From contig DYQY01000001.1 in the NCBI GenBank assembly GCA_020719045.1, forward strand, positions 164,207 to 228,206: a DNA stretch of 64,000 nucleotides, read 5' to 3'. Both the position numbers and the translations under genes were made by a program. A model generated the notes under the pieces. It was not told the DNA's origin. It worked only from the letters and a program-made list of their open reading frames with translations, and did not search any database. Source of the stretch: Candidatus Termititenax sp. Its GTDB lineage: Bacteria > Margulisbacteria > Riflemargulisbacteria > GWF2-35-9 > DYQY01. Every line of letters begins with the position of its first letter. The stretch's first letter is position 1. This document shows positions 44,854-54,844 of the stretch, one piece after another.

Positions 44854-45137
44854 ACAAGTCCTTATTTGTTACTTTATGTTTGTGTATTATGTTACTTTCT
44901 TGGAATATAACTGGCTTATTTGGTTCGAGCGTAAAGTATTCATTTGAAACTTTTTCATGTAGCGATAATCAATTAAGTTTGTGGCAGAAAGTGGATGAAA
45001 ATAGGTATACGTTAAGTAATTTCAACTCAAATGCGTATTTGTCACTCAAGCAATATTTGAAGAGAACAAATGATAAGAAGTTAGTGTCTTTTGAAGTTGA
45101 TAATGGGAGGGCGACAATTGTTTTTGAAGCTGTTTAG
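44829..45137 (+). CDS. small bitopic membrane protein, possibly PilO/PilP-like
   Basis: A 102-residue protein with one N-terminal membrane segment (about 11-30, SLFVTLCLCIMLLSWNITG) and about 70 residues outside. AAGGAGAT lies about six bases before the ATG, inside the upstream gene. Between a bitopic protein and a secretin, it takes the place of an alignment subcomplex protein, but this is inferred from position. No family motif recognised. Confidence 0.6.
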   Translation: MGIDQKFLNKSLFVTLCLCIMLLSWNITGLFGSSVKYSFETFSCSDNQLSLWQKVDENRYTLSNFNSNAYLSLKQYLKRTNDKKLVSFEVDNGRATIVFEAV

Positions 45138-46062
45138 ATTTTTTGTTGGAATAGTTTTACTAAACTTCTGTTTTGGAGTACAAGCTGTTTTTAATTATCC
45201 TGCTGCAACTCCTGTAGTTACTCAAGCAACTGCTGTTAAAGAGCAAAGCTTTGTGATTGATTATCGTTATTTAGAAGAGGAAGAGATAACGGCATTATCG
45301 CAGAAACTTTTCCCAAGTTTAAAAGTTTCAGTAAATAAAAAGAATAAGAGTATTCTTGTTGTTGGAGAGCAGCAAGATATTAAAAGACTTAGAACCATAA
45401 TTACCTCTATTGATAGTAATAGAAAATCTGTATACTTCAAAACATGGTTAATAGAAGTTAGTCACAGTAAGTTATCGGGACTAGGTGTTAATTGGCAGAA
45501 TTACAAAGATGGACTTAGTGTAGGCGATATGACAGATAAGCAAAAACTATTTGATAACTTGAGCGCGCTGGTGAGTAAAGGCGAGGCCAAGGTGTTAGCT
45601 AACCCAACAATTACCTGTCTTGATGACGAGATAGCTTTTATTAAGGTGGGAGATAAAATCCCTTATACTGTGCCCGTGGAGAGTGCATCCAATAAGGTTG
45701 GTTGGGAGCTTAGATACATTGATTCAGGAATTAATCTATCAATTAGACCAAATATTCTGTCTGATGGATTAGTTTCGTCAGTAATAAAACTAAAAGTAGA
45801 CAATGTAAAACAGTGGAAGTCTACAATGGCTGGAGAATATCCTGTGCTTTCTAGTCGGGAAATTAACTTAAAGTGTCAGATAAAGAGTGGGCAGGAGTTA
45901 ATACTTGGTGGTCTTATAAATAGTAATGAAAGAGAGAATGTTTCAACGCTTCCAGTTTTAGGAGATATCCCATTTGTTGGGTCAATTTTTAGTCAAACAA
46001 CAATGGAAAAGGATGATACGGAAATAGTATTTATCTTATCTCCAGAGATTGTTAACTTATAG
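45118..46062 (+). CDS. short secretin (PilQ/GspD-like)
   Basis: An outer-membrane secretin of about 314 residues. TTG 45118 is chosen because GGGAGG (45105-45110) lies seven bases before it and the protein then opens with a signal peptide (LKLFRFFVGIVLLNFCFGVQA). An earlier TTG at 45091 would add nine residues. An N1-type domain (KQDIKRLRTIITSIDSNRK region) is followed by the secretin core (KVLANPTITCLDDEIAFIKV, then LPVLGDIPFVGSIF). It is short compared with PilQ or GspD (over 400), since only one N-domain is present. Confidence 0.88.
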   Translation: MFLKLFRFFVGIVLLNFCFGVQAVFNYPAATPVVTQATAVKEQSFVIDYRYLEEEEITALSQKLFPSLKVSVNKKNKSILVVGEQQDIKRLRTIITSIDSNRKSVYFKTWLIEVSHSKLSGLGVNWQNYKDGLSVGDMTDKQKLFDNLSALVSKGEAKVLANPTITCLDDEIAFIKVGDKIPYTVPVESASNKVGWELRYIDSGINLSIRPNILSDGLVSSVIKLKVDNVKQWKSTMAGEYPVLSSREINLKCQIKSGQELILGGLINSNERENVSTLPVLGDIPFVGSIFSQTTMEKDDTEIVFILSPEIVNL

Positions 46063-47113: not shown

Positions 47114-47764
47114 CTAACTTAAAAGTAGGTTTCTTATGTTATCTTTGATTATTTTTTGTTGTTGTTCTATTGGTTTCAGGCAATCAACAGTTACAAACTT
47201 ATAAGATTTTGCCATTAGTTCATATTGTTCAAGTAGTTGAGATTGGTATTTTTTTATGGAAATAGAGGTGTTTGGACTTAGTCCAATGTCCATTCCGCTA
47301 TCATAATAGTCATTTTCTTTTTGTTCTTGCGTAACTCTACCAAGTGCTTCATCAGCATCGATTTTAAAATAAAAAGTTAGGTCTGGTTCAATTGCGAACT
47401 CGTAAACCTTGTTAATCCAGTCTTTGTTTTGTCCTCTTAGATAATCTTTAGCAATCGAGGTATATACGTATTTATTAAATAAAACGATAAATCCAGACTT
47501 AAGAGCAGGGATAACTTGATTATGCATAAGGTCGCTAAAGTCTGCGGCATGAATTAGGCTATAGGTTATAGGAATTAAGGATTTTTCTTGTTTTGCTTCT
47601 GCTATGTTAGCTGATACCAGCGGTGAGTTTTTTCTTTTAAGTAAAGAAACACCGTAACCTTCAATTTCAAGCCAATTCTTTGTTAATCCTAGCTGAGTAG
47701 TTTTTCCACTACCATCTAACCCCTCTGCTACGATAAGTTTACCAGGATAGTTATGTTTCTTCAT
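47114..47764 (-). CDS. thymidylate kinase-like protein with altered DRY motif
   Basis: A 216-residue P-loop kinase of the thymidylate kinase family. The P-loop is GLDGSGKTT (15-23). Where thymidylate kinases have D-R-Y/H, this protein has NKY (97-99, VLFNKYVYT), which removes the conserved base-catalytic aspartate and arginine. The rest follows its neighbour closely (GMDIGLS against GMDMKLS). It overlaps that neighbour by four bases (ATGA). Activity as a dTMP kinase is doubtful; a divergent substrate or regulatory partner role is possible. Confidence 0.8.
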   Translation of the reverse strand: MKKHNYPGKLIVAEGLDGSGKTTQLGLTKNWLEIEGYGVSLLKRKNSPLVSANIAEAKQEKSLIPITYSLIHAADFSDLMHNQVIPALKSGFIVLFNKYVYTSIAKDYLRGQNKDWINKVYEFAIEPDLTFYFKIDADEALGRVTQEQKENDYYDSGMDIGLSPNTSISIKKYQSQLLEQYELMAKSYKFVTVDCLKPIEQQQKIIKDNIRNLLLS

Positions 47765-48483
47765 TGAAACTTCCTTTTAATTATTTGAAGAACTTTTTCT
47801 CTAAAAAGTATCTGTTTATCATGTATTTCCTGTGTGCCATCCATTAGAGTGAATCCGAATTCATCTACCATTGTTTCATACTCTGAAATAACTTTAGACT
47901 GGAATAGCAAATAGCTTTTATATGGATCATTGCTAAGTTTCATATCCATTCCTGCTTCATAGTATTTAGGTTTTCTGGTTTGGGTGATTCTTTCTAGGCT
48001 AACCTCAACAGGCACCTGAAAATAAAAGATACCATCAGGCTTTATAGCAAATGAGTACATATTTCTTAGCCATTCTCTATCACAATTTCTAGCATAGTCT
48101 CGTGCAAGAGCAGTATAAATATATCTATCAGCCAAAACGATATAGCCTGAAGACAAAGCTGGGATAATTGTTTTATATAGTCTATCAGCGAAGTCAGTTG
48201 CATGTAGGAGACTGAAAGTGTTGCTATCTAGGAGTCCTTCTTTCTTTCCTTTTCTAATTGTTTTTGCTACAAGAGCAGATGAGTTCCATTCAGTAAAAAT
48301 AACAGGATAACCCTCAGCGATAAGCCATTTTTTAAGTAGGTGTAGTTGTGTAGATTTGCCAGAACCGTCTGTGCCTTCGACAACTAGGAGGATTCCTTTG
48401 TGTGGGTGTGACTTATATAGGTTACTATTTAAGGTAGACTCTAGGAATTCTGTAGTGTTTTTTTGTTTTTTTTTAAAGACCAT
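47761..48483 (-). CDS. thymidylate kinase-like protein
   Basis: A 240-residue P-loop kinase with P-loop EGTDGSGKST (36-45) and an intact DRY (119-121, VLADRYIYTALARDY). Thymidylate kinase phosphorylates dTMP to dTDP. The N-terminus is about 25 residues longer than usual (MVFKKKQKNT onward). First gene of a pair with a paralogue. Whether this is the organism's main Tmk cannot be decided here, since a shorter canonical tmk could lie elsewhere. Confidence 0.8.
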   Translation of the reverse strand: MVFKKKQKNTTEFLESTLNSNLYKSHPHKGILLVVEGTDGSGKSTQLHLLKKWLIAEGYPVIFTEWNSSALVAKTIRKGKKEGLLDSNTFSLLHATDFADRLYKTIIPALSSGYIVLADRYIYTALARDYARNCDREWLRNMYSFAIKPDGIFYFQVPVEVSLERITQTRKPKYYEAGMDMKLSNDPYKSYLLFQSKVISEYETMVDEFGFTLMDGTQEIHDKQILFREKVLQIIKRKFQ

Positions 48484-48561: not shown

Positions 48562-48960
48562 TTGAATATTCAGGGTCCATCGCAGAATTATGCAAATTTA
48601 ATAAACCAATCGCTATATAATGCTGTTGCTTCAAACAAAGAAAATCCTAGCGCTCAGCAAGTTACTGCAGAGCAAATATTCAATAAGTTTTTTAAAGGTG
48701 TTAAGTCTAAGGATGAGTTTAAGAAGAAGATAAGAAAAACACTTACAAGCATTAATGATAACTTATCTGATGAAGACATAGACAGCATTTTAGGTTCATT
48801 GGAAACAGAGGAGCAACCTCCTTTTTGTGCTTCTTATAGCGAAGAGGGCGTTAGTAAAGAAATGGACTTAAACGACAATGTAATGCGTTCAGATTTATAT
48901 GATGTTTTTTTAATGTTTTACCAAGATATTTATGGTGAAGCAGCTAAAAAAATTGGCTGA
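48562..48960 (+). CDS. small acidic protein of unknown function
   Basis: A 132-residue soluble, helical protein beginning MNIQGPSQNYANLINQSLYN. A TTG start is supported by GAGGG seven bases upstream and a promoter at normal distance. It has no membrane segment or known motif. NLSDEDIDSILGSLETEE in the middle looks like a short helical hairpin. It precedes the ABC transporter genes but ends before their promoter, so it is probably separate. Confidence 0.65.
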   Translation: MNIQGPSQNYANLINQSLYNAVASNKENPSAQQVTAEQIFNKFFKGVKSKDEFKKKIRKTLTSINDNLSDEDIDSILGSLETEEQPPFCASYSEEGVSKEMDLNDNVMRSDLYDVFLMFYQDIYGEAAKKIG

Positions 48961-48995: not shown

Positions 48996-49784
48996 ATGGT
49001 AAAATATAATAGATTATTTTTTGAAAGAAGCCCTCGGTTTCCCCACCCCCTGTACGGCGAGGGCTTCAAGAAACTTTCCATAAGTAACTTAAGTTTTTCC
49101 CTAAATGAACATTGTATCTTTAATAATGTTAATATTGATTTATTACGTCATGATTTGTCTTTAATTATAGGCGAAAACGGAATAGGTAAATCAACGTTAT
49201 TTAAGATAATAACAAAACAGCTCCCAGGTTACAGCGGAGAGGTTATCTTGGATGGTAGAAACACAAGCGAGTATTCAAGTCGAGAATTAGCTACTAAGAT
49301 AGCATATCTTCCACAAAAAATTATTTTTGATACACCATATACTGTTTTAGAGATGCTAGCTATGTCTGGTTACTCAAACCAAAAAGAGACAGAGGGTCTT
49401 ATTCAAGAAGCATTAAATTTGTTTCAAATCGAAGAAATTATGCATAAAAAGATAACTCAACTTAGTGGTGGTGAAATGCAACGTGCATTACTTGCCTCAA
49501 CCTATGTAGTTGGTGGGCACTTGATGCTACTTGATGAGCCTTTTAGTTTCCTTGATCCTGGTCAAAGAAGAAGGTTTTTTGAGCTTATTGTAAGATTGCA
49601 TGAGCAGCAAAAAAGGACGTTCTTTTTAGTTGTTAATAGCCTAGAAGAAATAATGATGTTTAAAGACGTAGAGCGGTTAAAAATATATGTAATTAAGGAT
49701 ACCCAGATTGCTAGTTTTGATGAGATAGATAAGAATTTTTCAAAGTTATTTTATGATATTTTCGGTGTAAAGGTAGGCAAGTAA
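48996..49784 (+). CDS. ABC transporter ATPase (FecE/BtuD-like), N-terminus altered
   Basis: A 262-residue ATPase for a metal-chelate or cobalamin-type importer. Walker A is IIGENGIGKSTLFK, the signature is LSGGEMQRAL, and Walker B is LMLLDEPFSFLDPGQ. Normal family members begin around LSISNLSFSL. Here the frame has about 26 extra residues (MVKYNRLFFERSPRFPHPLY then GEGFKK) that are the translation of a palindromic repeat. A TATAAT at 49005-49010 lies after this ATG, so the true start is uncertain. It may lie in the repeat or be non-standard. The permease gene follows three bases after its stop. Confidence 0.85.
   Translation: MVKYNRLFFERSPRFPHPLYGEGFKKLSISNLSFSLNEHCIFNNVNIDLLRHDLSLIIGENGIGKSTLFKIITKQLPGYSGEVILDGRNTSEYSSRELATKIAYLPQKIIFDTPYTVLEMLAMSGYSNQKETEGLIQEALNLFQIEEIMHKKITQLSGGEMQRALLASTYVVGGHLMLLDEPFSFLDPGQRRRFFELIVRLHEQQKRTFFLVVNSLEEIMMFKDVERLKIYVIKDTQIASFDEIDKNFSKLFYDIFGVKVGK
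49027..49067 (+). repeat. palindromic repeat at the 5' end of the ABC ATPase gene
   Basis: GAAGCCCTCG (49027-49036) and CGAGGGCTTC (49058-49067) are perfect 10-base inverted arms around 21 bases that contain CCCCACCCCC. The GC content is far above the surroundings. It is read in frame and resembles mobile palindromic elements of RPE type that insert within genes. Confidence 0.75.
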
Positions 49785-49787
49785 AGG

Positions 49788-50750
49788 ATGTATAAATTTA
49801 TTGTACTTTCTATTGTAACTATTCTTGTTTTATTGTTTTCACCTTTTTTTGGTGAAAGATATATTAATATTTTTAGTTTTTTGTATGAACAGGATTCTTT
49901 TTATATTTTACTAAATTATAGGATACCGAGGATAATTTTGGCTTTTTTTGCTGGAGCAGGGTTATCGTTATCAGGGATGATGTTTCAGTCTTTATTTTGT
50001 AATGTACTGGCAACACCTTATACTTTGGGAATTTCCTCTGCCGCTTCTTTTGGGGCATTATGTGCAATGGCTCTCGGTTTTACTTTTAATGTTTGGATAT
50101 TCGACCAAACAGTAGTTTTTGCGATAATTTTTGCAGTGTTATCGTTAATAGTTACATATTTGATAAGCAGACGATATGCAGAAGGAAGAATGTCTGACAT
50201 GCTTTTAATCGGAGTTGCAATGAACTTCCTTTTTTCTAGCCTGATTATGTTGCTTCAGTTCCACTTAGATTACTTGAATGCATTTAAGTTTATGCATTGG
50301 ATGTTTGGCAGTATTAGAAATGTTTCTTATGAGGTTGCGATTTTTGAGTTTACGATTATTGTGTTTGTAACAATTCTTGTTTTTGCTTTACGTAAGGAGC
50401 TAGACCTTCTAAGTTTGGGCGAAGAATTTGCACAAAGTAGAGGTGTGAATGTTGCTTATGTTAGATGGGTGTTGATTGGCATTGGCTCAGTGTTAATAGG
50501 TTCAATCGTAGCTTTTTTTGGCCCAATTGCCTTTATTGGATTGATAGTTCCAAATATCGCAAGAGCTATTTTTGGTGCAGTTCATGGTAAGTTGATTTTT
50601 TCAACTTTGCTCATAGGCGGAAGCTTGTTAGTGGTTGCAGATGTATTATCAAGAGCTATTTTTTCCCCAGTTGAATTACCAGTAGGGATATTTTCTTCTG
50701 TGATAGGCGCGATTTTCTTTTGTTTTCTAGTTATAAATAGACGGCATTGA
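49788..50750 (+). CDS. FecCD-family ABC transporter permease
   Basis: A 320-residue inner-membrane permease with about nine or ten membrane segments. YRIPRIILAFFAGAGLSLSG near the N-terminus, MLLIGVAMNFLFSSLIMLL and the VAFFGPIAFIGLIVPNIAR coupling-helix region are diagnostic of FecCD/BtuC permeases for siderophores, haem or cobalamin. It pairs with the upstream ATPase. No substrate-binding protein or TonB receptor is encoded nearby, so the substrate stays open. Confidence 0.92.
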   Translation: MYKFIVLSIVTILVLLFSPFFGERYINIFSFLYEQDSFYILLNYRIPRIILAFFAGAGLSLSGMMFQSLFCNVLATPYTLGISSAASFGALCAMALGFTFNVWIFDQTVVFAIIFAVLSLIVTYLISRRYAEGRMSDMLLIGVAMNFLFSSLIMLLQFHLDYLNAFKFMHWMFGSIRNVSYEVAIFEFTIIVFVTILVFALRKELDLLSLGEEFAQSRGVNVAYVRWVLIGIGSVLIGSIVAFFGPIAFIGLIVPNIARAIFGAVHGKLIFSTLLIGGSLLVVADVLSRAIFSPVELPVGIFSSVIGAIFFCFLVINRRH

Positions 50751-54831: not shown

Positions 54832-54844
54832 TGGGGGTTAGTAA

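Follow-up and report, generated by a model that had tools for sequence, protein, structure and literature searches.

The question raised by the locus considered here is what a perfect palindrome is doing at the very start of an ABC ATPase frame, in a stretch of 64,000 nucleotides (hereafter, the window) from a Candidatus Termititenax genome. Such a palindrome could be a part of the protein, an inserted repeat, a terminator, a control element of the gene that follows, or a gene in its own right. The ATPase frame (48996-49784, + strand; 262 aa; Pfam ABC_tran, E 4e-27) begins with an ATG, and its first 26 codons cover a promoter-like box and a hairpin. The 10-base inverted arms noticed in the original prediction are indeed perfect (GAAGCCCTCG, 49027-49036, and CGAGGGCTTC, 49058-49067) and, together with the 21-nt loop between them (GTTTCCCCACCCCCTGTACGG, 49037-49057), form the core hairpin (49027-49067, + strand). 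The frame is open through the palindrome as was claimed, encoding RSPRFPHPLYGEGFKK ahead of the ABC_tran domain, and a TATAAT is found downstream of the ATG, at 49005-49010. Within the loop lies a C-rich tract, CCCCACCCCCTGTACG (49041-49056, + strand), whose run of C's is interrupted by one A in the window copy and which is the proposed pairing segment discussed below. Directly 3' of the hairpin, the sequence reads AAGAAAC, in place of the T-run that follows the hairpin of an intrinsic terminator.

The ATPase gene is followed by that of its partner, a FecCD-type permease (49788-50750, + strand; Pfam FecCD, 2e-79). The upstream neighbour of the hairpin is a gene for a 132-aa protein (48562-48960, + strand) that has no Pfam match, contains a strongly conserved QPPFCASYSEEGVS core, and for which orthologues were found only in the seven genomes of one order. 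A secretin gene (45091-46062, + strand; Pfam Secretin, 1e-38) is located 3 kb upstream of the hairpin, and its relatives adjoin the element elsewhere in the phylum. Between the secretin and the 132-aa gene, two thymidylate-kinase-like genes are found in tandem on the - strand (47114-48483), an arrangement that recurs in relatives, for example, in G002.

Comparison across the order shows that the palindrome is shared by all relatives at this site. The element occupies the gap that separates the ATPase gene from the 132-aa gene in all seven genomes of the order (G000, the window genome, to G006), with one strong copy per genome, so that no relative shows the empty orthologous site expected of a recent insertion. 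The stems vary in sequence and yet pair: 96% of the cells of the alignment are paired, and in 5 of the 11 pairs both bases changed, compared with a mean of 1.9 after shuffling, whereas in a control in which the stem partners were slid by 1-3 columns, no more than 60% of the cells were paired and no more than 2 pairs changed on both sides. In contrast to the variable stem, the loop shows almost no variation in the order (TT(T)CCCC(N)CCCCCTGTAC; n = 7), and a search with the loop pattern gave a single match per genome in the order, with no match in the outgroup G007. The folding energy of the window copy taken alone is unremarkable (z = -1.9 and -1.8), compared with z = -4 to -7 for its relatives in the order.

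The constraint on the element is also apparent at the nucleotide level within the coding frame. Between the window genome and its congener G001, 47 identical bases cover the element, synonymous sites included, and the next-longest identical run is only 14 nt. In the rest of the ATPase, 151 of 235 residues (64%) are identical between the two genomes. All 7 fourfold sites are kept within the element, compared with 13 of 43 in the rest of the gene (Fisher p = 8e-4). Thus, synonymous sites are frozen over the element only, and this nucleotide identity implies that protein constraint alone is insufficient to account for the conservation. Furthermore, when the orthologous ATPase starts are compared, the frame runs through the hairpin only in G000, G001, G002, and G005; in the remaining three genomes (G003, G004, and G006), the ATPase starts 3' of the hairpin, which is accordingly outside the frame. 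A T-run follows the hairpin in G004 and G006 and is absent in the window genome, G001, G002, G003, and G005.

Upstream of the stem, the relatives conserve an extended -10-like box, TGGTAAAAT (48997-49005, + strand), which overlaps the ATG, rather than the TATAAT, an alternative -10 (49005-49010, + strand) that reads TATAAA in G001. The box is TGGTAAAAT in G000 and G001, and TGGTAATAT, TGATACAAT, TGGTATGCT, or TGTATAAT in the other genomes of the order, such that a box of the TGNTAnnnT or TGTATAAT type is found 12-20 nt 5' of the modelled hairpin in all seven. When the best -10-like boxes of the two strands were compared, that of the C-strand was the better one in 19 of the 23 members of the element family, including 7 of 7 in the order. 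Given that no -35 was recognized and that a generic promoter scan was not above chance, the promoter, which we propose to be that of a small RNA with a transcription start at about 49012, is inferred from conservation.

With either -10, the conserved box or the TATAAT, transcription would start after the ATG. The four genomes in which the hairpin is fused to the frame (G000, G001, G002, and G005) contain no in-frame ATG, GTG, or TTG between the hairpin and the ATPase domain. The original suggestion that the ATG is not transcribed and that the ATPase must start at a non-standard codon after the hairpin therefore survives in outline: the conserved -10-like box overlaps the only ATG, the transcripts would begin just 5' of the hairpin, and no standard start is left in these four genomes. 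It may be that the ATPase has been annotated with an incorrect start.

The element is not confined to this order. Margulisbacteria are an uncultured phylum near Cyanobacteria. A first covariance model, made from the sequences of the order, yielded weaker matches in other families of this phylum; the order sequences and those other-family matches that had a C-run in the loop were aligned to make a second covariance model, which was searched in 74 genomes. Counting a hairpin as the element only if it had both a C-rich loop and a long stem, we identified it in 23 of the 74 Margulisbacteria genomes, representing 14 of the 30 families; sixteen sequences were used to build the second model and hence match by construction, whereas the members from G047, G028, G039, G020, and G032 were added by the model. 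By the same definition, no element was found in families f4, f5, f6, f8, f11, and f14. L062, L066, and many model matches of 20-36 bits, none of which had a C-run in the loop, were taken to be ordinary terminators and were not counted. In the alignment for the entire phylum, 94% of the cells are paired and 7 of the 11 pairs changed on both sides, compared with 2.0 in shuffles, none of which (0 of 500) reached 7; the C-run is kept throughout. As a control, 347 kb of other sequence was searched on both strands, and the only hairpins with a C6 loop and a stem of at least 10 pairs were copies of the element and a two-hairpin C8/C8 RNA in G048 and G049. The latter is a separate RNA-like stretch (L121:948-1056 in G048 and L120:411-516 in G049) that consists of two tandem hairpins with C8-C9 loops, is conserved between these two congeners, which belong to a different family of Margulisbacteria, has no Rfam match, and resembles actinobacterial 6C RNA in shape.

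Outside the order, most members have a T-rich tail after the hairpin, with only a short T tail in G030, G040, and G044, and several have an additional small 5' hairpin, of variable sequence and without a C-run. In G046, a second run of nine C's directly follows the C-loop hairpin (L068:1549-1570; ATGCCCCCCCCCTATATT). An open frame also runs through the element in G030 (L061:1190-2754; MFTQKRGYKSSRRPPPLFESF...), a genome from another family; the gene that follows is one for polysaccharide export, and in this case there is also an ATG 3' of the hairpin.

The genomic neighbourhood differs between the order and the rest of the phylum. A secretin gene was detected by tblastn within about 1.5 kb of the element in 12 of the 16 loci outside the order, and the element is often found between the secretin gene and an SLBB/Poly_export gene. 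The neighbouring genes are on the strand of the element in G030 and G044, and on the other strand in G040-G043, G046, G047, G039, and G052. Location in the secretin neighbourhood in either orientation points to a single old locus and to an independent transcription unit, and placement on either strand relative to the neighbours is as expected of an independent gene.

Taken together, these observations make it probable, in our assessment, that a small regulatory RNA, conserved in much of Margulisbacteria, has the palindrome as its core hairpin and acts in trans, by pairing of its poly-C loop with G-rich ribosome-binding sites. A promoter with an extended -10 that overlaps the annotated ATG would start a short transcript about 10-15 nt 5' of the hairpin, and the stem would then display the loop run, consisting mostly of cytosines, for pairing with the G-rich ribosome-binding sites of mRNAs, altering and mostly lowering their translation. 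Where U's follow the hairpin, as in most members, it would double as the terminator. In the window genome and three relatives, there is no U-run, which we suspect to be a derived state, and the RNA gene would overlap in frame the 5' end of the gene for a metal/siderophore-type ABC ATPase; the ATPase would still be translatable from an upstream ATG or GTG on longer transcripts coming from the 132-aa gene. The small-RNA interpretation is weakened by the window copy itself, which has no U-run, an A within the C-run, and no -35 that could be found, and by the shortness of the T tail in some members elsewhere in the phylum.

A search for potential partners of the loop, with the statistics derived from one 228-kb contig of the window genome, showed that 40 of 335 runs of at least 4 G are located 3-13 nt before an ORF start, compared with 9 of 335 C-runs. 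This excess of G-runs mostly reflects ribosome sites, yet possible pairing sites exist. The longest run, GGGGGG, is found before a motA-like gene (L146:775-1571, - strand) and is retained in G001, though not in G006; in the window, a run of GGGGG stands before an flgC-like gene at 54833, both gene names having been assigned by reading the sequences. These G-rich sites before the motA-like and flgC-like genes may be partners of the C-loop, although at present they are candidates only. A further stretch of 10 nt complementary to the loop was found in neither G000 nor G001, and this result, like the lack of the GGGGGG in G006, tells against the small RNA.

A more tentative proposal, which we would not regard as likely, concerns the four species with the fused frame: the same 45 bases might have two roles, acting in trans as a small RNA by means of the C-rich loop and, when part of longer transcripts, providing the first codons of the ABC ATPase. 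Because no standard start codon for the ATPase follows the hairpin, use of the regulatory RNA might then compete with translation of the transporter. On short transcripts, the in-frame CUG of the conserved loop (CCCCUGUAC) could be the start codon.

Among the alternatives to the small RNA, the one that fares best, while still being unlikely, is that the hairpin controls the ABC transporter operon 3' of it as a cis-acting leader, either as an attenuator or as a structure recognized by a protein, a ligand, or the ribosome. This is close to the original prediction, in which the hairpin would sit in the leader and could control translation, and the position does fit: in each genome of the order (7 of 7), the ATPase gene comes immediately after the element and shares its strand, the -10-like box would put the element at the 5' end of the transporter transcript, and G004 and G006 have an attenuator-like T-run. 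However, the constancy of strand and of downstream gene class that is expected of a leader or a riboswitch holds in the order and not outside it, where its neighbours are genes for secretin, polysaccharide export, or other functions and often have the reverse orientation. Moreover, no alternative anti-terminator fold was seen, and the four fused genomes have no standard start codon after the hairpin from which the transporter transcript could be read. Because the element elsewhere adjoins other genes in either orientation, and usually comes with its own T-rich tail, control of the ATPase in cis, while possible, is not the best reading.

That the element is an ordinary intrinsic terminator or a pause site between genes, with the C-rich loop being incidental, seems improbable. 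Many members do combine the hairpin with a T-run, and many of the 20-36 bit matches to the model elsewhere are plain terminators; the element itself differs from these in that its loop is more conserved than its stem, the opposite of what is seen in a plain terminator, in that 5 of the 7 members in the order lack the T-run, and in that a conserved -10-like box lies just upstream. In addition, long-stem hairpins with a C6 loop are otherwise absent from the control sequence.

Still less credible is selection on the element as a conserved N-terminal peptide of the ATPase. The frame is open in G000, G001, G002, and G005, with RFPHPLYGEG or RFPPPLYERG encoded and no standard start after the hairpin, but the frozen synonymous sites, the compensatory nature of the stem changes, and the start of the ATPase after the hairpin in the three other relatives, where the DNA element is nonetheless present, led us to reject the extra peptide as a conserved protein feature.

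Finally, the translated, mobile palindromic insert of the RPE type that was originally proposed, which is modelled on the Rickettsia palindromic elements and likewise would account for a perfect palindrome in an open reading frame that adds RSPRFPHPLYGEGFKK, has almost nothing left to recommend it: unlike RPE, the element is not repeated in the genome (a single copy in 1.75 Mb and 31 contigs) or found in many genes, but is conserved in place across the order, outside the frame in three relatives, with a fixed loop, a variable stem with compensatory changes, and frozen synonymous sites, so that for the window genome this reading is already refuted by copy number and shared position. Of the two observations that the original prediction named as telling against it, the lack of other copies is what we find, whereas the extra residues are conserved only in the closest relatives. 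A viral origin was considered as well and rejected: the four matches from two pattern scans of viral contigs were all due to chance and lay in other DNA without the stem, and a phage BLAST search returned only short chance pieces.

The element thus appears to represent an unreported family of regulatory RNAs in Margulisbacteria, present, as one strong copy per genome, in about half of the families and tied to the secretin locus. More generally, a palindrome in frame at the start of a gene may itself be an overlapping RNA gene. A partial literature search found no paper on small RNAs of Margulisbacteria, and no family in Rfam 15 matches the element. FsrA is a small RNA family linked with iron. 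It provided the best of three chance-level Rfam matches over the hairpin (RF02273; E 6.2, 11.5 bits against a cut-off of 80), which does not amount to a match.

Regulators with C-rich loops are known in the unrelated Xanthomonas, Helicobacter, and Actinobacteria, and the element is apparently an independent case of what might be a shared solution, a stiff hairpin that offers a C-run, probably to G-rich ribosome sites. The 6C RNA of Actinobacteria (RF01066) likewise has runs of about six or more C's in hairpin loops, but it consists of two C-loop hairpins, in contrast to the single one of the element. It has no match in the window at the gathering score, is over the cut-off in none of the 74 genomes, and is not found in the order even at E <= 1, so that it is excluded as the identity of the element by both Rfam score and architecture. 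Being a stable hairpin with a C-run in the apical loop, the element is closer in kind to sX13 and RepG. In sX13 of Xanthomonas, G-rich motifs close to start codons are the proposed pairing partners of C-rich apical loops on stable stems (PMC3771888); the likeness is in the C-rich loop on a stable stem, whereas sX13 comprises three stem-loops with 4C/5C motifs, compared with one main hairpin and up to 11 C's in the element, and belongs to a different phylum, with no shared sequence known. In RepG of Helicobacter pylori, the terminator hairpin itself bears the C-rich targeting loop (PMC8295292), as would be the case in those members of the element family that have a U-run. The target of RepG is a G-repeat of variable length in tlpB (PMC8295292), whereas for the element no such single target was found, and as far as tested, the two are not related by sequence, such that the resemblance lies in the terminator hairpin with its C-rich loop.
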